DNA of 64,000 nt, taken from assembly GCA_019745075.1 (NCBI GenBank), contig JAIETR010000002.1, positions 62,001 to 126,000 of the forward strand, given 5' to 3'. How positions within the stretch are numbered: position 1 is the first letter of the stretch; each line of letters begins with the position of its first letter. The translations under genes and the position numbers were made by a program. The notes beneath the pieces were generated by a model that was not told the origin of the DNA, searched no databases, and worked only from the letters and a program-made list of their open reading frames with translations. Positions 10,385 through 34,294 of this stretch are shown in pieces. Origin of the DNA: Qipengyuania sp. (GTDB taxonomy: Bacteria; Pseudomonadota; Alphaproteobacteria; Sphingomonadales; Sphingomonadaceae).

Positions 10385-10714
10385 TCAGATGACCGCGGTC
10401 ACGACCGAGGTGACGATCGGGACACCCGTGCCCACGCCGATGCCGACGCCGACCGGAACCGCGACCTGGCTAAGCGAGAAGCGCCCCGAGGCGAGGCCGA
10501 TCAGGCCGCCCGCGAGGCTGAGGACGGTGATGATCTTGCCGCCCGAGCCTTCGAGGAAATCGGTGAACTTGGTCAGCGCCGGGGTGAAGGTCGTATCAGC
10601 GCCGGCGTAAGCGGCGCTGGCCGCGAGCGCGGCGATGGCGACGGGAATGGCAAGATTGACGGCCTTGCCGAAGCCGTTGGCGCTGTGGCGCCGAGGGAGG
10701 GTGAGAGACTGCAT
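10385..10714 (-). CDS. traA: TraA-like conjugative pilin precursor
   Basis: MQSLTLPRRHSANGFGKAVNLAIPVAIAALAASAAYA / GADTTFTPALTKFTDFLEGSGGKIITVLSLAGGLIGLASG...; long leader, two hydrophobic segments, first gene of the operon. Confidence 0.82.
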   Translation of the reverse strand: MQSLTLPRRHSANGFGKAVNLAIPVAIAALAASAAYAGADTTFTPALTKFTDFLEGSGGKIITVLSLAGGLIGLASGRFSLSQVAVPVGVGIGVGTGVPIVTSVVTAVI

Positions 10715-20905: not shown

Positions 20906-22531
20906 CTAGGCCGCCGCCTCCCTGGCGCGCGCGACGCCGGCTTCCTGTTCGCCGAGAATGATCCCGGCGGCGCGTTCCGCGATCATCATCGTCGGCGCAT
21001 TGGTGTTGCCCGCGACCAGCGTCGGCATGATCGAGGCGTCGACCACGCGAAGCCCCTCCACGCCGCGCACGCGCAGCGATGGATCGACCACCGATTCGGA
21101 ATCGCGGCCCATGCGGCAGGTGCCGACGGGATGGTAGATCGTCTCCGCCCGCTGGCGGATATCTGCGATGATCTCCGCCTCGCTCTGGACCGACGGCCCG
21201 GGCACCAGCTCGGTCTTCGAAAAGGCCGCCATGGACGGGGCCGACAATATCTGCCGCCCGAGCCGCACCGCCGCGACCATCGTCTCGAGATCCTCGGGCG
21301 CCGAGAGATAATTGGGGTCGATCAGCGGATCGTCGAGCGGGTCCGGGCTCTGCAGCCCGATCCGGCCCCGGCTCTTGGGCAGGAGGTCGCAGACATGCAG
21401 GGTATAGCCATATCCCAGCGCGATTTGCCGCCCATGATCCTTCAGCAGCGTGGGCAGGAAATGGAACTGGAGGTTCGGCCGGCTCCGTGAAGGCGAGCTT
21501 TTGATGAAGCCGCCCGATTCCGCGACGTTGCTCGTCAGGAAGCCCTTCCGGAGGAAGGCGTAGGAAAAGGCTCCGGCCAGCGCCCGCGGGATGAAGGAGG
21601 GCGCGATTCCGATCGGCGTGCGGTCGTTCGCCTCATGCATGATCGTGATGTCGAGATGATCCTGCAGATTCTTTCCGACGGCCGGAAGATCGACGACCAC
21701 CGGAATGCCGAGCGCGTTCAGCTCGGTCGCGTCGCCGATGCCCGAAAGCTGCAGCAAGTGGGGGGAATTGACGGCACCACCCGACAGGATGACCTCGCCC
21801 TGGGTGCGAACGTCGAACCTCTCGCCGCCCGCCGAATAGGTGACGCCGACCGCCTTGCGGCCCTCCAGGATGATCCGGGTCGCGCGCGCGCCGGTGACGA
21901 TCCGCAGGTTCGGCCGGTCCCTGGCCTTGGAGAGGAAGGCGCGCGCCGAGCTCCAGCGCCGGCCGCGATGCTGGGTGACCTGGTAGAAGCCGACGCCTTC
22001 GTGAGTCTCGGCGTTGAAATCGGCGCTGTACGGATATTGGAGCTCCCGGCCGGCCTCGACGAAGGCGTCGCTCAGGCGGTTGCGGGTCGGAAGGTCGCAG
22101 ACATGCAGGTCGCCGTTGCCGCCATGATAGTCGCAGGTGCCGAATTTCGCATTGGTCTCCATCGCCTTGAACAGGGGAAGCACGTTGTCGTACGACCAGA
22201 TCGGACCCGCCGCCTCGGCCCAGGCGTCATAATCGTCGCGATGCCCGCGAATATAGACCATCGCGTTGATCGAGCTCGATCCGCCGAGCGTCTTGCCGCG
22301 CGGCCAGAACAGCCGCCGACCGTTCAGATTGGCCTGGGGCTCGGTCTCGAACGCCCAGTTGAGCGTCTTGTTCTTCGAAAGGAGCGCGATCCCGATCGGC
22401 ATGTGGATCAACAGGCTGCGGTCCGCCGGGCCGGCCTCGAGCAGGCAGACCTTGGTCCGGGGATTGGCCGACAAACGCTCCGCCAGCAAGCAGCCGGCTG
22501 ACCCGGCCCCAACGATTATGTAGTCGAACAT
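20906..22531 (-). CDS. alkJ: GMC-family alcohol dehydrogenase (AlkJ-like)
   Basis: [37 protein letters not shown] signature and C-terminal HPVGTCRMG; synteny with alkB. Confidence 0.9.
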
Positions 22532-22581
22532 CTAAATCTCCGGGCTGGTGCTTATCGGGACCGCTCCCCTGTTTTCGATGA

Positions 22582-24036
22582 TCACCCGAGGATGCGGACG
22601 GTGAGATTGATCAGCTTCTTCACCAGCGGCGTGTAGGGCGGGAAAAGAAGGGCGAGGATGGAGAACCTGTCGCGCAGGATCGCCCGCTCGTGGGAAAATG
22701 CCTTGAAGCCGTAAAAGCCGTGCGCGTTGCCGAGGCCGCTATTGTTGACGCCGCCGAAGGGCAGGTTGGGATGCAGGAAATGGACAACATTGTGGTTGAT
22801 GCAGACCCCGCCGGAACTGGTCTGATCGATGATGTCCCGCCACGAAGCCGCGCTCTTGCTGAAGATATAGAGGGCGAGCGGCTTGGGCCCCGCGTTGATC
22901 GCGTGCACCACGCGGTCGATATCGTCATATTCGATGATCGGCAGGACCGGGCCGAATATCTCTTCCCGGGAAATCGCCATTTCGGGCGTGGTCCCGCCGA
23001 GCAGGGTCGGCGAGAAATAATTCTGGCTGGGATCGCGCGCGCCGCCTTCCACAATGGTCGCGCCCTGTGACGTCGCATCGTCGGTGAGCGCGCTCAGCCG
23101 TTCGAAATGGCGCGGATTGACGATCCGGCCATAATCCGGGCCGCTCTTGCGCTCGGCGTCGCTTCGCCCGTAGGTCCGGGCGATCTGGCGCCGCATCGCA
23201 TCGGCCAGGGCCTGCGCCCGGCTGCGGTCGACATAGATATGGTCGGGGGCGATGCAGGTCTGGCCGTTGTTCGAGAATTTGCCCCAGATGATCTTCTTCG
23301 CCGCATCCTCGATATCCGCCGTCGAATCGACGATCGTCGGAGACTTGCCGCCGAGCTCGAGCGTCACCGAGGTCAGGTGCTTCGCGGCGGCCGCCATCAC
23401 GATCTTGCCGACCTGGGGGCTGCCGGTGAAGAAGATGTGGTCGAAGGGCAGGTCGAGCAGCGCCTGGGACACCGCAGCGTCGCCCTCGCAGACGGCGACT
23501 TGGTCCTGGGGGAAGGTCTCCTCGACGATGTCCCGGATCAGGGCGGAGGTGGCCGGGGTCAGCTCCGAAGGCTTGAGGATGACGCTGTTTCCGGCCGCCA
23601 GCGCCGACGCCAGGGGGCCGAAGCTCAGATTGAGCGGATAGTTCCAGGGGGCGATGATCAGGCAGACGCCCTTGGGCTGGTAGCGCACCTCCGCCGCGGT
23701 TCCGAACATGCCGAGCGAGGCGGGGACCGGGCGCGGCCGCATCCAAGCGCGCAAGTGGCGCTTGGCGTGGGAAATTTCCTGGTAGACCGGGAAAATCTCG
23801 GTCAGCCGCACCTCGGATTCGGGCTTGCGGAAATCCGCGTGGAGCGCCCGGATGATGTCGTCCTCCCGGCGCCGGATCGTCTCCTTGAGCCGCGACAGGC
23901 TGGCCAGCCGGTCCTTGCGGGTGAACCGCGCCCGGTTCCGCTCGGTCGCTTCGCGCTGGCGGGCGAACAGGCTTTCGATCGGGCCCGTATCGACGGGGCG
24001 GGCGGGCTCGACACTGGTCAATGCATGCACGCTCAT
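22582..24036 (-). CDS. alkH: NAD(P)-dependent aldehyde dehydrogenase (AlkH-like)
   Basis: [50 protein letters not shown] class-3 motifs and hydrophobic C-terminus. Confidence 0.9.
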
Positions 24037-24094: not shown

Positions 24095-24313
24095 TCACGG
24101 CTCGATGCGCTCATAAGCTTCCTTGGTCGCGCCGCAGTCGGGGCAGTACCAATCGGCGGGCACGTCGGCCCATCGCGTGCCCGGGGCTAGGCCCGTCTCC
24201 GGGTCGCCGAGCGCCTCGTCGTAGATGTGGCCGCACGTCACGCAGTGCCATTTCGTGAACGGCGCCGCTTCCCCCGACGGCTGCGGGGACCGGGCCTGGT
24301 CGTCCCAGCTCAC
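24095..24313 (-). CDS. alkG: Rubredoxin (second copy)
   Basis: [47 protein letters not shown]; two CxxC rubredoxin motifs; GTG start. Confidence 0.92.
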
Positions 24314-24501
24314 GCCGCGACCCCGCCGATCCCGCTCATGCCCAAGGGGATGAAATCGGGCTTGTCGCGCACCGCGCAATCGGGGCAGGCCCAGTCATCG
24401 GGAACCTGCGCCCAAGGCGTGTGAGGAGGGAAGCCTTCATGGGCCTCGCCCTTTTCCTCGTCGTAGACGTAGCTGCAATCGGGACATTGATATCGCGCCA
24501 T
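24310..24501 (-). CDS. Rubredoxin (first copy)
   Basis: MARYQCPDCSYVYDEEKGEAHEGFPPHTPWAQVPDDWACPDCAVRDKPDF; CPxC motifs. Confidence 0.92.
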   Translation of the reverse strand: MARYQCPDCSYVYDEEKGEAHEGFPPHTPWAQVPDDWACPDCAVRDKPDFIPLGMSGIGGVAA

Positions 24502-24667
24502 GACGCCGCTTTCCTTCCTGGACATGAGTTGCGAAGATGCCGCCGGCAGGGCGGCCGCTGGGAACGATGCGATCGGCCCCTGCTCCCCGGCCGGACCCGG
24601 CCGCGGGGCTCGCTGGGGCTCCCTCGGGGAGGCACGGACGCCTCCCCGAATCGCCAGATCGGCCAGC

Positions 24668-25876
24668 CTATTCGGCCGCGATCCGCGCGGCCTCGCGCGC
24701 TCGACCGTATTTGCGGGTGATCCGCTTCCGGCTCGCCGGATCGATCTGGATCTTGCCCAGGTCGCCGCCCGCCCATGCCACGACCCGCCGGTCCATCACC
24801 GACCAGAAGATCGGCGGGACCATCGCGATGAAGAACATGCCGGGATAGCCGGTCGGCAATTCGGGCAGGTCCCTGAAGTCCCGCAGCGACTGATAGCTGC
24901 GGGTCGGATGCGCATGGTGATCGGAATGCCGCTGCAGGTGGAAGAGGATCAGGTTCGAGGCGATGTGGTTGCTGTTCCAGGAATGCCGGGGCTGGGCGCG
25001 CTCGTAGCGTCCGTCCGCCATCTTCTCGCGCAGCAATCCATAATGCTCGATATAGTTGGCGCTGGTGAGCTGCCACCATCCGAATGCCATCTGGATGGGC
25101 AGGAAGACGAGCAGCTTCGGATCGGGCCCGAGCACGAGGATCAGCGTCGTGTAGATCGCCACGCTGAGCAGCAGCGGCGGGATGATCTCGTTGCTGAGGC
25201 TCCATTCGCTCTTGCCGACGCGCTCCAGCCGCACCTTTTCCAGATTCCAAGCGCGCCGGAACGCGCCCGGAATCTCGCGCAGCGAGAATTTGTAGATGCT
25301 CTCGCCCATCCGGGAGGTGGCCGGATCCTCGGGAGTCGCCACGTCGCGATGGTGGCCCTTATTGTGCTCGATGAAGAAGTGGCCGTAGCCGACCACGGCG
25401 AGGACGATCTTGGCCATCCACCGGTCGAACGCCCGCTTCTTGTGGCCGAGCTCATGGCCGGTGTTCAGCGCGAGGCCGTTGACGATGCCCAGGGAGAAAG
25501 CGAGGGCGATGACCTCCCACCAGGCCATGGGCTGGGTCGCGACCCACCATGCCGAGACGATCAGCGAGGCATAATGGACCGGGACGGTGAGATAGGTGAG
25601 GATTCGGTAGTAGCGATCCGCCTCGAGGCGCGCCACCGCCGCTTCCGGGGGATTGTTCGGATCGTTTCCGAACAGGCCGTCGAAGATCGGGATGATCCCG
25701 TACCAAATGATCAGGGTGAGCGCGTAGAAGATGCCCCACCCCGTCTGGCTGACAAGGTACAGTCCGATCAGGGGCGCCGCCGGCCAGATGACCGACAACA
25801 TCCAAAGATAGCGCTTCCTGTCGACATAGCGATCCGGCGCGTTATCGGCGGACGGATTTCGTGCGATAGTGCTCAT
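24668..25876 (-). CDS. alkB: Alkane 1-monooxygenase AlkB
   Basis: NTGHELGHKK, EHNKGHHRDVATPEDPATSRMGESIYKF, NYIEHYGLLR, LQRHSDHHAHPTRSYQSLR: membrane di-iron His boxes characteristic of AlkB. Confidence 0.97.
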   Translation of the reverse strand: MSTIARNPSADNAPDRYVDRKRYLWMLSVIWPAAPLIGLYLVSQTGWGIFYALTLIIWYGIIPIFDGLFGNDPNNPPEAAVARLEADRYYRILTYLTVPVHYASLIVSAWWVATQPMAWWEVIALAFSLGIVNGLALNTGHELGHKKRAFDRWMAKIVLAVVGYGHFFIEHNKGHHRDVATPEDPATSRMGESIYKFSLREIPGAFRRAWNLEKVRLERVGKSEWSLSNEIIPPLLLSVAIYTTLILVLGPDPKLLVFLPIQMAFGWWQLTSANYIEHYGLLREKMADGRYERAQPRHSWNSNHIASNLILFHLQRHSDHHAHPTRSYQSLRDFRDLPELPTGYPGMFFIAMVPPIFWSVMDRRVVAWAGGDLGKIQIDPASRKRITRKYGRAREAARIAAE

Positions 25877-25983
25877 CCGGCGTTCTCCTCATCCCAAGGA
25901 AGACACATTCACTGTGTTCCCAAAATCGGTTCTGATTGACCGTTCCGAGCAAATGGGAGTTATCATGGTCACGGAACAACCCC

Positions 25984-25997
25984 ACTAAAGTGTGGTT
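25984..25997. promoter_or_regulatory. Candidate AlkS-type operator upstream of alkB / reductase
   Basis: ACTAAAGTGTGGTT shared with 27432-27445 (ACTAAAGAGTGGTT); partial inverted repeat around CACTAAAG[A/T]GTG. Confidence 0.5.
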
Positions 25998-26093
25998 TTT
26001 AACCTCCTTCGAATCCCCTATCTGAAACGGGCGCGCAGTCGCGGCTGGTGTCTGGAAGTCCACACGAGGCGCTCGGTTTTGGAGAGGGCCCCT

Positions 26094-27320
26094 ATGAGCG
26101 GACCGGACGCACATGTGTTGATCCTGGGCGCAGGCCATGCCGGTGGAACGGCCGCCGCCCTGCTTCGCCAATATGGATTCGCCGGCGCCATCACCCTGGT
26201 CGGCGAGGAGCCCGTCGCCCCTTATCATCGTCCGCCGCTGTCCAAGGCCTGGCTGAGGGACGGCGCCGCCGCGCCGCTCCCCTTGAAGCCGGCGGAATTC
26301 TACGCCGCCAACGGCATCGATTTCCGGCCCGGCATTCGCGCCGAAAAGCTCGATCGCCCGGCCAGGATGGTGACGCTGTCGACGGGTGAAGTCCTCACCT
26401 ACCATTTCCTGATCATCGCCACCGGCGCCCGGCCGATCAAGCTGCCGGTTGCGGGATCGGACCTGGAGGGCGTGCTGGAGCTGCGAACGGCGGCCGACGC
26501 CGAACGGCTCCGCGCCGCGCTGGGGGCGGGCCGGCGCCTGGCGGTGATCGGCGGCGGCTATATCGGGCTGGAGGTCGCCGCGTCCGCGCGGGCGCTCGGC
26601 GCGGAGGTGACGGTGATCGAGCGCGAAGCACGGCTGCTCGCGCGGGTCGCCTGCCCGGAGCTTTCTGCCGTCTTCCTCGATTATCACTGCAAGCAGGGCG
26701 TGGGTTTCGAATTGGCGGCGACGGTGTCGGGATTCGAGGGGCAGGATGGACGCGTGAGCGGAGTCAGGCTCGACGACGGCCGCACCATCGCCTGCGACGC
26801 CGTTTTGATCGGAGTCGGCGCCGCCCCCAATGACGAGCTCGCGCGGGACGCGGGGCTGGACACGGCCTGCGGCGTCATCGTTGATCTGGAAGCCCGGACC
26901 GCGGATCCGGCCATCTTCGCCATCGGCGATGTGGCGCTCCGGCCCATGCCGATTTATGACCGCATGTTTCGCATGGAGAGCGTACCCAACGCCCTGGAAC
27001 AGGCCAGACAGGCCGCCAGCGCCATCGTCGGCCGCGCCCCACCGCCGGGCGAGGTGCCATGGCAGTGGTCCGACCAGTACGATCTGAAGCTGCAGATCGC
27101 CGGCTACGCCTTCGACGTCGACCGCGTCCTTCTGCGCGGCGATCCCGCCACCGCCAGGTTCGCAATCTTCCATTTGAAGGGCGATCAGGTCCAATGCGTC
27201 GAGGCGCTCAACTCGCCGCAGGATTTCATCTTCGGCAAACAACTGATCGCCAGTCGCAAGTCGGTTGACCTCGGCAAGCTGGGCGACCCGGCCATCGCCC
27301 TGAAAGAGATCGCGGCCTGA
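26094..27320 (+). CDS. FAD-dependent ferredoxin/rubredoxin reductase (AlkT-like)
   Basis: MSGPDAHVLILGAGHAGGTAAALLRQYGFAGAITLVGEEPVAPYHRPPLSKAWL; two GxGxxG motifs, IFAIGDVALRPMP. Confidence 0.9.
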   Translation: MSGPDAHVLILGAGHAGGTAAALLRQYGFAGAITLVGEEPVAPYHRPPLSKAWLRDGAAAPLPLKPAEFYAANGIDFRPGIRAEKLDRPARMVTLSTGEVLTYHFLIIATGARPIKLPVAGSDLEGVLELRTAADAERLRAALGAGRRLAVIGGGYIGLEVAASARALGAEVTVIEREARLLARVACPELSAVFLDYHCKQGVGFELAATVSGFEGQDGRVSGVRLDDGRTIACDAVLIGVGAAPNDELARDAGLDTACGVIVDLEARTADPAIFAIGDVALRPMPIYDRMFRMESVPNALEQARQAASAIVGRAPPPGEVPWQWSDQYDLKLQIAGYAFDVDRVLLRGDPATARFAIFHLKGDQVQCVEALNSPQDFIFGKQLIASRKSVDLGKLGDPAIALKEIAA

Positions 27321-27431
27321 CTGCCCAATGGCAGGAAACTGAAATTTGGCGATCAGGGACGCTTGTCCTCGAACGCCGACGAGCGGCGAGCGAGGGCCGC
27401 GGTCTGCCGGCCCAGCCGGCCCAAAGCCCAC

Positions 27432-27445
27432 ACTAAAGAGTGGTT
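27432..27445. promoter_or_regulatory. Candidate AlkS-type operator upstream of alkS-like gene
   Basis: ACTAAAGAGTGGTT, 44 bp upstream of the proposed alkS ATG (27489). Confidence 0.5.
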
Positions 27446-27488
27446 CTGGTTTGCGCGCCGGCTGGCCCGCCATTATGGTTCCGCCCCG

Positions 27489-30272
27489 ATGGCGCATCCA
27501 AAAGCAGATGATAAAGCATCGACGGACGTGCGAGGCATTCGAGCGGATGAGCCTGGGTCCCAGCCGCGATCTGCAACACGGTCTCCGGAGACAGACCCTC
27601 GCCCCCGACAAAGCGCACAGCCTCCGGCGGGCTCCGTCAAGGAGCGGGTGGCGTCGTTGGCGTCGGGATGCCTTCCACGCCCTCGCCTCTTCGCTATCGA
27701 CAAGCCGACGCGCTGCTTTCTCCTTCGCGCGCCCCGGGGCTACGGGAAAAGTGTCGCGATGGCTCAGCACTGGGCCGATCGCCGGCACGCCGGTGCTGCG
27801 GCGGCCTGGGTTCCCATCAAGGAATGCCGGCACAATCTGCAGCTGCTCGCGGAACGAATCTGCGCGCAGCTCTCCGCAACCTGCGAGGCCGGCGGCCGCG
27901 ACACGCCGCCTGCACCGCCCACGGAAAGTCCTCCCAGCCTCTATGACCTCGCCGACTGGCTCCGAGACACCAGGGATCGGCTGGGATCAAAGGTTGTGAT
28001 CTGCCTCGACGACCTTGAGTTTGATCTGCGTTCGCTGGAACAGATCGAGGATTTTATGCTGGCGGCGCCGGCCGGAGTGGAATTCATCGCGGCGACCTCG
28101 TCGGACACCGGCTTTGCGCGAATGAAAGCCCGGCAAGAAATCCAGGAGTTAAGGACTGATGCGCTTGCCTTCACATTCGAAGAAGCAAAAGCAGCCGCTT
28201 GCGGTCGGGAAGGGCCAGCAGTCTCGGAAGCAGAGATATATTCGCTTTGGAAGCGCACCAAAGGCTGGCCGGAAGTCTTTTGCCTTTTGATGCAAGCGGC
28301 ATCGGAAAGCCGGCCCTCGCCCGACCGCCTTATAGCCGACCACGTCACAGGCAGAGACATCGACCTGGATAAATACTTCCGGATCACAATCCTGAACTCA
28401 CTCGCCGATGACGTTCTGGAGTTTTGTGTTTGCGCATCAATTCTTGGATCGATATCCGCAGACTATTTCAACCATGTGTTCCGTAGGAACGATGGGGCTT
28501 ACTATATCGACAAACTTTCCGCCGACCAGATGGTTTTGCGAGCGCTGGACCGATCCCAGACGGCGTATGAATTCCACCCGTTGCTTCGCGAATTTCTCGA
28601 GCACAGATTCTCGGTAGAGCATCGCGGCTCGAAGCCAAACCTGCTCGCCCGCGCCGCCCAATGGCAAAGACAAAACAACAACAGTCGCGAAAGCATCAGC
28701 CTTTCCTTACGCGCGGGCGAGAACGAATCGGCCGCTGAGGTCGCATCTGAAAACATGATGGATATTGCGCTGCGGCAGGGCGAGATAGATCAAATCCAAT
28801 CATGGCAAAGCAGTTTTTCCGCTGCTGTCGTTTCTGGCGCTCCAACAATCGCTCTTGGCCTGGCCTGGGCCCAGATTTTTAGTCACGACCACCAGCGGGC
28901 GGGCGGCCTGTTGGCCGATTTGCGCGCCATTGACCTCGGCGGTCTTGATCAACAAGCACGCCGACAAATGGAGTGCTGGTGCGACCTTATCACCGCCATT
29001 GGCGAGGCGACCGGCGACAATCTGACGGAAAGCCGGCGTCAGTGTGAAGCCTGGATAAAGGTCTATGACGAGGCGGATCTCGTCTGCAAAGGCGCCATCC
29101 TCACATGTCTTTGCTTCATTGCGGCCAGTGAACACCGGTTTGATGATCTAAGGAAGGCGTGCTTGGAAGCATCATCGGTAAACAACATCGCCGATCACCG
29201 CTACGCGCTGGGCTGGCTTCACAGCGCTATGATTTTCGCCGAGCTTTCTAGGGGCGATATGCGCGCGGGGGCTGCGCTGCTCCGAAAAGCTCGTGACGAC
29301 GACACTGCTGAAATCAATACGACCCCGTTTTCCGTAAACCTCCTGAACACGCTGGAACTTGAACTTCAATACGAGGTCAACCAACTGGACGGCCTGGAAA
29401 CACGCGTCGATGAGATCCTTGATTTTGTGCGGCAGCATGGCATCGTCGATTTTACATTTTCGGCTTATCGTACCGCGGCAGCAATTGTCCGACGCAATGG
29501 CGATCTAAAGGGCGCAGTCGAACTTCTTCAGGATATGCGCGTGATAGCGGGAGAATTCGGCTTCTTCCGGCTTGACGTCCTGGCGCGCTTGACGCTCGCG
29601 GATCTGTTCGTTGTAGAGAGCGCGGAGCAGGCGACCGCTATTTTGCCGAACCGCGGCCACCCTGTCTTTCTCACGTCTCACGGGCCGTATCTGCGCGCAC
29701 GGCAATCGCTGACCGAAGCTCGCATTGCGGCGCGACAGGGCAAATTTCACCTTTCCAACCGCCTAGCGAACGTCGCTTTAGACCATGCGCGCCGATCAGA
29801 ACTGGGCAGGCTGGAGGTTGCGGCGCTGCTCTGCACCGCCGTTGCTTGGGCGGGGACAGGACGAGCCGCCCTCTCCGAGCAACGCGTAGCCGACGCGATC
29901 GATATGGCTTCCCGACTTGGGTGTTATCGCACGCTCCTCGATGAGCGGTGGCATCTGCAGGCACTTGGATCCATCTCGACGCCGCTGTTGAACCTCATTC
30001 CGAGCCAGGAGGAATTGGGGTGTCGCGAACCTGCGCCGGGCGACCATCGCGTACGCTCGCCGAACAGCGAGGCTTCCGTTGTGCTCACGAGAAAAGAACT
30101 GGCAATGCTTCACAGGATAAGAGAAGGGCTCTCTAATCGTGATATCTCGATCAAGCATCGAATAAGTGAAGACACAGTGAAATGGCACATTCGCAATATT
30201 TTTTCTAAGTTGATGGTCAGAAACAGAGTTCAAGCGCTTCTAAAGGCAGAGCGAATCGGTATTCTACGATGA
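27489..30272 (+). CDS. alkS: MalT/AlkS-like LuxR-family transcriptional activator
   Basis: ~927 aa; P-loop FLLRAPRGYGKSVAMAQHW near N-terminus, LuxR HTH LTRKELAMLHRIREGLSNRDISIKHRISEDTVKWHIRNIFSKLMVRNRVQALL at C-terminus; next to alkB. Confidence 0.85.
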   Translation: MAHPKADDKASTDVRGIRADEPGSQPRSATRSPETDPRPRQSAQPPAGSVKERVASLASGCLPRPRLFAIDKPTRCFLLRAPRGYGKSVAMAQHWADRRHAGAAAAWVPIKECRHNLQLLAERICAQLSATCEAGGRDTPPAPPTESPPSLYDLADWLRDTRDRLGSKVVICLDDLEFDLRSLEQIEDFMLAAPAGVEFIAATSSDTGFARMKARQEIQELRTDALAFTFEEAKAAACGREGPAVSEAEIYSLWKRTKGWPEVFCLLMQAASESRPSPDRLIADHVTGRDIDLDKYFRITILNSLADDVLEFCVCASILGSISADYFNHVFRRNDGAYYIDKLSADQMVLRALDRSQTAYEFHPLLREFLEHRFSVEHRGSKPNLLARAAQWQRQNNNSRESISLSLRAGENESAAEVASENMMDIALRQGEIDQIQSWQSSFSAAVVSGAPTIALGLAWAQIFSHDHQRAGGLLADLRAIDLGGLDQQARRQMECWCDLITAIGEATGDNLTESRRQCEAWIKVYDEADLVCKGAILTCLCFIAASEHRFDDLRKACLEASSVNNIADHRYALGWLHSAMIFAELSRGDMRAGAALLRKARDDDTAEINTTPFSVNLLNTLELELQYEVNQLDGLETRVDEILDFVRQHGIVDFTFSAYRTAAAIVRRNGDLKGAVELLQDMRVIAGEFGFFRLDVLARLTLADLFVVESAEQATAILPNRGHPVFLTSHGPYLRARQSLTEARIAARQGKFHLSNRLANVALDHARRSELGRLEVAALLCTAVAWAGTGRAALSEQRVADAIDMASRLGCYRTLLDERWHLQALGSISTPLLNLIPSQEELGCREPAPGDHRVRSPNSEASVVLTRKELAMLHRIREGLSNRDISIKHRISEDTVKWHIRNIFSKLMVRNRVQALLKAERIGILR

Positions 30273-33353: not shown

Positions 33354-33508
33354 GACCGCCTCCTGATATTTCCCCACGAGTGCTCATTCTAGCGCAGCGG
33401 GAACAGAAACGTCAATAAAGATGATAAGGTTTAAAAGCGAAGAATGCAGGGCGGCTTCCGATCAAGCGGGACTGGACAGGGTAGATCGCCAACTCTTATA
33501 AGGTTTCG

Positions 33509-34294
33509 ATGGCAGAGGCACTGGAGCCCACCACACAACGGGCGCCCAACGAGCGCACGGGCGCTTCCAAAGCAAAGCGCGCGCTCGTGCTCGCACGCGA
33601 GATTGTCGACGACATCGAAGCGAACGCGCACGGCCCCGGCGATCGGCTGCCGCGCGAAGAGGACATGCTTGCCCGTTACGAGGTCGCCCGAGCTACCCTG
33701 CGCGAGGCGTTGCGATTCCTCGAACTTCAGGGAGTGATCCATCTCCAGCCAGGCCGAGGTGGGGGGCCCGTGGTGGCACGGCCGCAGACCGCGGACTTCG
33801 CCAGTTCGATGGCTCTGATCCTGCAGTTCATGGACACCGATTTGCGCTCGCTCCTTGACCTGCGCGAGGCAGTCGCCCCAGCAGTTGCTCAGCGAGCGGC
33901 CGAGCATGCCACTGCGGCCGACCTCGCGGCGCTGGAAGATTGCCTGGCCCAGCTCGAGCGCGAGCACGAGGCACCTGAATTCGAAGAGACCAACCGGCGT
34001 TTTCACGACCTGCTCGGGTGGGCCAGCGGTAATCCGGCCTTCGGGCTGCTAGTCTCGGCGCTTCACCTGCTGACGCGCAACATGTCGATAAGCCTCGGGT
34101 ATTCGGCGCAGGAGCGCGCCGCGCAGCTACGCTGCCTCGGCCGCGTGCTTCATGCCGTCCGGATGCGCGATGCGGCAGGCGCGCGCGCCCAGATGGAAAG
34201 GCTGACCGCTGGATCGACCCGATACCTGACGGAGCGAAGTCCGGGAATCGTCGCGCAAAAAGTTCGTTGGGAAAACGCAAGCCGCCAGGCTTGA
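33509..34294 (+). CDS. GntR/FadR-family transcriptional regulator
   Basis: DRLPREEDMLARYEVARATLREALRFLELQGVIHLQPGRGGGPVV winged helix plus FCD domain. Confidence 0.93.
   Translation: MAEALEPTTQRAPNERTGASKAKRALVLAREIVDDIEANAHGPGDRLPREEDMLARYEVARATLREALRFLELQGVIHLQPGRGGGPVVARPQTADFASSMALILQFMDTDLRSLLDLREAVAPAVAQRAAEHATAADLAALEDCLAQLEREHEAPEFEETNRRFHDLLGWASGNPAFGLLVSALHLLTRNMSISLGYSAQERAAQLRCLGRVLHAVRMRDAAGARAQMERLTAGSTRYLTERSPGIVAQKVRWENASRQA

Follow-up and report, generated by a model that had tools for sequence, protein, structure and literature searches.

Two 20-bp dyads in the alk cluster of Qipengyuania sp., one between alkB and a divergent reductase gene and one upstream of alkS, are in all likelihood operators of the AlkS-type activator encoded at 27489–30272, through which it would activate alkB and the reductase gene and exert positive feedback on its own gene. 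All positions are those of the analyzed stretch of 64,000 nucleotides of contig JAIETR010000002.1 (the window), unless a relative is named. That alkB and alkS are each preceded by an AlkS-type operator had been proposed in an earlier sequence-only reading of this DNA and is supported by the comparative evidence given here; binding, activation, the inducer, and the sign of autoregulation would follow the precedent of Pseudomonas putida GPo1, by analogy. The features concerned are listed below.

20906–24033, minus strand: GMC alcohol dehydrogenase (alkJ-like) and aldehyde dehydrogenase (alkH-like), downstream of alkB and in its direction
24098–24503 (approximate limits), minus strand: two rubredoxins downstream of alkB, CxxC-type MARYQCPDC / WYCPDCGA repeats
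24668–25876, minus strand: alkB, membrane alkane 1-monooxygenase (Pfam FA_desaturase)
25978–25997, no strand: predicted AlkS operator 1, AACCCCACT-AA-AGTGTGGTT, in the divergent promoter of alkB and the ferredoxin (rubredoxin) reductase gene
26019–26024, plus strand: putative −10 of the reductase promoter, TATCTG, 21 nt after the dyad
26094–27320, plus strand: FAD/NAD-dependent ferredoxin or rubredoxin reductase (Pyr_redox_2, Reductase_C), divergent from alkB
27426–27445, no strand: predicted AlkS operator 2, GCCCACACT-AA-AGAGTGGTT, upstream of alkS, putative autoregulatory site
27474–27479, plus strand: putative −10 of the alkS promoter, TATGGT, 9 nt before the ATG
27489–30272, plus strand: alkS, LuxR/MalT-type regulator of 927 aa, start ATG 27489, GerE helix-turn-helix

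The genes read leftward are alkB, the rubredoxins, the aldehyde dehydrogenase, the GMC dehydrogenase, and an OmpW-type porin. To the right of alkS lie genes for a SpoIIAA-like protein, a thioesterase, a ferredoxin, a cytochrome P450, and a GntR/FCD regulator (33509), of which the thioesterase and ferredoxin were provisionally assigned by analogy with plasmid pSfKp5.2 of Sphingopyxis fribergensis (locus L044), and the P450 may, from its context, be CYP153-like. That plasmid has the same order: OmpW, GMC, aldehyde dehydrogenase, rubredoxin (annotated at the same place), alkB, reductase, alkS, thioesterase, ferredoxin, P450, and FCD regulator. The two dehydrogenase genes keep their order in L044–L048, and the same reductase gene is found in L038, L039, and L044. 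The alkB product is 72–87% identical to annotated alkane 1-monooxygenases on AlkS-encoding plasmids. The alkS product carries a C-terminal LuxR/GerE helix-turn-helix (PF00196, 8.6e-15) and a visible P-loop-like RAPRGYGKSVAMA; it matched the NCBIfam MalT model at 1.2e-43 over residues 72–503, below the cut-off of the model, and TPR_MalT at 23.7 bits (cut-off 45). Its gene is linked to those for AlkB, rubredoxin, and reductase, as also in L038, L039, and L044–L048. The AlkS of Pseudomonas 7-41, encoded next to alkT, is 32% identical, belongs to the same clade, and was used as a stand-in for GPo1 AlkS.

No close AlkS was found in 100 relatives (60 of the same genus), where the next best match had 26% identity. 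In samples of the order, class, and phylum (401, 385, and 399 genomes), the MalT-like proteins found outside the window were all distant and lacked the dyad; the family is therefore sporadic in distribution. The alk cluster was probably acquired horizontally, as suggested by this lack of a close homologue in the sampled same-genus genomes and by the low G+C content of alkS (57%, against 64–68% around it). A survey has already reported that Sphingomonadales carry alk clusters and that these are associated with IS elements; its available text describes no operators (PMC9526415).

Both 14-mers of the sequence-only reading, ACTAAAGTGTGGTT at 25984–25997 and ACTAAAGAGTGGTT at 27432–27445, were present with 13 of 14 positions identical. 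In the 3.02-Mb genome ACTAAAGWGTGGTT matched exactly only at these two sites, with one further place at 2 mismatches. When the two intergenic regions were shuffled with dinucleotide composition kept, a best match of at least 13 arose in 36 of 3000 shuffles (~1%), so that the pair by itself is only weakly significant and suggestive; it is conservation among relatives that carries the argument. Rather than the 14-mer, the actual unit is a dyad of 20 bp (9+2+9): AACCNCACTWWAGTGNGGTT, scanned through the whole genome at up to 3 mismatches, occurred on the alkB side and the alkS side, and no additional copy was found. The core had also been described as an inverted repeat. Dyad symmetry was upheld, but the register was not, as CACTAAAGAGTG (CACT-AAAG-AGTG, centre 27436.5) lies one base to the right of the conserved axis at 27435.5, the central AA of CT-AA-AG flanked by the arms CCACaCT and AGaGTGG. 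The CACT-AAAG-AGTG palindrome of the alkS copy is incidental. Around the conserved axis 8 of 9 arm pairs are complementary in the alkB-side copy and 6 of 9 in the alkS-side copy.

A search based on the regulator yielded 10 loci, 72–83% identical in the best segment, from Brevundimonas, Sphingobium, Sphingomonas, a Hyphomonadaceae MAG, and others. The dyad was found upstream of alkS in 9 of these 10 close relatives, and also in the promoter region of alkB or its derivative. Across seven lineages mean identity in the alkB promoter was 0.94 inside the dyad versus 0.68 outside, with 15 of 20 columns invariant in the dyad versus 20 of 195 in the rest, and the best-conserved 20-nt windows were those over the dyad. 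In L039, a Brevundimonas MAG, the alkB-promoter site is the perfect palindrome AACCCCACTAAAGTGGGGTT, i.e. AACCCCACT-AA-AGTGGGGTT, and the alkS-side dyad of Brevundimonas L034 carries a compensated change from CCAC/GTGG to CCCC/GGGG. Upstream of alkS the dyad was missing in L039 and L044, which means that autoregulation is not obligatory in the family. At about 5400–6000 of L039 the reductase gene and alkS are separated by a DUF2147 gene, and no alkS operator is left; judged from this arrangement, alkS regulation must differ there.

A second conserved block, GGGAACACAGTGAATGTGTCTTCC (25899–25921, minus strand), was noted in the alkB leader, where it is the best conserved stretch of the promoter after the dyad. 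It holds a short inverted repeat that could fold into a hairpin (z of about −1.7 for a 30-mer), and its counterpart in Sphingopyxis L044 has compensated arms, ACGCA/TGCGT. The block is possibly an mRNA leader hairpin or the site of a second regulator.

The same 9+2+9 dyad was found in the alkB/alkS region of plasmids whose AlkS is only 27–32% identical. Its sequence is AACTACACTAAAGTGTAGTT in Pseudosulfitobacter, AACTACTCTAAGGGGTAGTT in Marinobacter, and AACTACACGTTCGTGTAGTT in Phaeobacter, in all three of which AlkS is the regulator divergent from alkB, and the Pseudomonas 7-41 plasmid (pCP7-41) has two dyads, one before alkB and one before alkS. Loci of 14 MalT-like regulators outside alk clusters contained no dyad at up to 2 mismatches. 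Covariation between the arms reached 0.304, compared with 0.169 (sd 0.028) after shuffling, with none of 500 shuffles as high and at most 0.084 when the register was slid. Of 15 distinct sites, 10 had C-G at position pair 4/17 and the other 5 had T-A, without exception; the sites are not independent, so that these counts overstate the number of events, but the slid control fell far short. At about 6841–6860 of L059, on a plasmid of Sphingobium WTD-1, AACTACACGAACATGTAGTA stands just upstream of an AlkS-like regulator gene with no alkB annotated within 7 kb, and could be an autoregulatory dyad of AlkS type. A dyad at 10675–10694 of L058, AACCTCTCTTTAGAGGGGGG, on a Methylibium petroleiphilum plasmid, may be a further operator variant; it lies upstream of a reductase gene in a cluster that contains alkB and encodes a distant regulator of LuxR type. 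Methylibium petroleiphilum was left uncounted, its regulator falling among the outgroups in the tree on a long branch and its alkB-side dyad being out of register.

The sequence-only reading had also moved the alkS start from 27363 to 27489, and here it was right, given an in-frame stop within the motif in seven relatives and an ATG common to them. The stop (TAA or TAG) occurs in L034, L035, L036, and L040–L043, where a one-base difference between motif and ATG brings it into frame, and no in-frame start before the motif is therefore usable in these loci; they also lack a counterpart of TTG 27363. ATG 27489 is conserved in every relative that keeps the alkS promoter. The first gaps after it, which fall in the opening codons, have lengths divisible by three, unlike those before it. 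The GTG that ends the motif (5953; L035, L036, and L040–L043) is formally possible as a start there, but neither L034 nor the window offers this option. At the place of TATGGT, L034, L035, and L036 have TATAGT and L038 has TATAAC; no Shine-Dalgarno sequence was found before ATG 27489. The promoter probably lies at 27450–27479, giving an alkS mRNA that would be leaderless or nearly so.

Every −10 element named here is a putative one. On the reductase side TATCTG follows the dyad by 21 nt also in L034, L035, and L039, with TATCGA at 20 nt in L044, and the alkS dyad of Pseudomonas 7-41 is followed at 21 nt by TATGGT. Such spacing would put the dyad centre near −43, usual for an activator of this kind. 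No promoter passed a sigma-70 consensus scan, which is consistent with activator dependence. In the proposed mechanism, AlkS would be activated by an alkane or alkane derivative and, as a dimer, occupy the 20-bp dyad, which would sit immediately before the −35 region or overlap it, and recruit RNA polymerase. From the central site this would drive the alkB, rubredoxin, and aldehyde and alcohol dehydrogenase genes leftward and the reductase gene rightward; from the second site it would drive alkS itself, whose message would begin next to ATG 27489.

It is unlikely, though not far-fetched, that AlkS binds both sites but activates alkB alone, the alkS-side site serving negative autoregulation. 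The weaker arm pairing of the alkS dyad would fit such a role, as would its distance from its −10, about 6 nt greater than at the reductase site (27–28 nt versus 21), and in GPo1 AlkS acts from its site as a repressor of PalkS1 too (PMC3664771). The alkS dyad nevertheless stands upstream of a putative −35/−10, in the position of an activator; the alkS copy of Pseudomonas 7-41 keeps the 21-nt spacing seen at activator sites elsewhere, and the positive feedback of GPo1 likewise counts against repression. We consider it very improbable that another regulator, encoded elsewhere or by the GntR/FCD gene at 33509 beside the P450 gene, acts on the dyad. That gene does belong to the same cluster, in Sphingopyxis fribergensis L044 as well, and GntR sites are likewise dyads, but neither the window nor L044 has the dyad between the P450 and GntR genes. 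The Marinobacter, Pseudosulfitobacter, and Phaeobacter clusters, moreover, have the dyad with no GntR/FCD gene nearby and always with AlkS divergent from alkB. Chance similarity, or a non-functional leftover of a duplicated promoter at alkS, has the ~1% of shuffles with a 13/14 match in its favor but can hardly be entertained against the conserved position and compensated changes of the alkS copy in relatives, the presence of both copies in Pseudomonas 7-41, and the dissimilar flanks of the two copies, which argue against recent duplication. Points that do count against the AlkS reading are the lower symmetry of the alkS copy, its absence in L039 and L044, its greater distance from the −10, the dependence among the 15 sites, and the finding that a homologue of the AlkS operator upstream of A. 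borkumensis alkB2 was not functional (PMC8784404).

Positive feedback by AlkS through operators upstream of PalkB and PalkS2 has been described in P. putida GPo1, and both this AlkS and that of A. borkumensis use a 20-bp inverted repeat (PMC8784404, PMC3664771); the window sites thus belong to a known type of circuit. As on the OCT plasmid of GPo1, a LuxR/MalT-type regulator is linked to alkB and an inverted-repeat operator precedes the alkB and alkS promoters, with feedback predicted here. The outer arms are AACC/GGTT in the window as opposed to AACT/AGTT in pCP7-41, the nearest available Pseudomonas relative and a stand-in for the GPo1 operator. Unlike in GPo1, the reductase gene rather than alkS is divergent from alkB; alkS has a predicted operator copy of its own. 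In GPo1, Crc binds the 5′ end of the alkS mRNA (PMC3664771), whereas the transcript here is probably leaderless. Alcanivorax borkumensis (SK2, AP1) shares the LuxR/MalT-type AlkS and has its 20-bp inverted repeat upstream of alkB1 (PMC8784404). There alkS precedes alkB1 in one operon, unlike in the window, and is reported to be constitutive (PMC8784404), whereas the window alkS has its own predicted operator. Sphingopyxis fribergensis L044 has AACCCAACTAAAGTGGGGTT between alkB and the reductase gene and, unlike the window, no dyad upstream of alkS. The lux box is also a 20-bp dyad, bound by a GerE/LuxR-type helix-turn-helix and centred near −42 to −44. The window dyad resembles it at its presumed position, but regulator architecture (MalT-like NTPase/TPR) and sequence differ.

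The outer arms of the dyad are AACC/GGTT in the window clade and AACT/AGTT in all others sampled; the recognition helix reads KWHxRN or KWHxHN in the former and KWHxRK or KWHxKK in the latter. It may be hypothesized that operator and recognition helix covary, with only two well-supported clades and essentially one change on the tree to go by. The cytochrome P450 gene differs among relatives in its upstream region. Sphingobium/Sphingomonas relatives have a complete alkB-type promoter, dyad included, ahead of it, with remnants of both the reductase gene and the alkB start on its flanks, and alkB itself has a second promoter copy. Dyads lie at 1855–1874 and 5355–5374 in L036, with the same arrangement in L040, L041, L042, and L043. 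To judge from these remnants, AlkS probably controls the P450 gene in these Sphingobium/Sphingomonas strains by promoter capture. Before the P450 gene of the window (33378–33508), a third AlkS site was sought and rejected, the best match being 10/18. Taken jointly, it is possible rather than probable that AlkS regulators have split into at least two operator classes, which would be orthogonal, AACT-A-C..G-T-AGTT in Pseudomonas, Marinobacter, and Rhodobacterales versus AACC-C-C..G-K-GGTT in the Sphingomonad/Brevundimonas group, with a change from KWHxRK to KWHxRN, and that AlkS governs the Sphingobium/Sphingomonas P450.

What is new here is modest, namely the clade-specific outer arms and the promoter copy at the P450 gene of Sphingobium/Sphingomonas. 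From the analysis come an operator consensus, AACYnCnCT-NN-AGnGnRGTT, that covers AlkS regulators of both Alpha- and Gammaproteobacteria, and a corrected gene start, since automatic callers can set alkS 42 codons too early. The likely regulon in the Qipengyuania genome comprises alkB/reductase and alkS, not the P450 gene. Alkane biosensors could make use of the promoter/regulator pair, whose DNA specificity may be distinct from that of the Pseudomonas pair.
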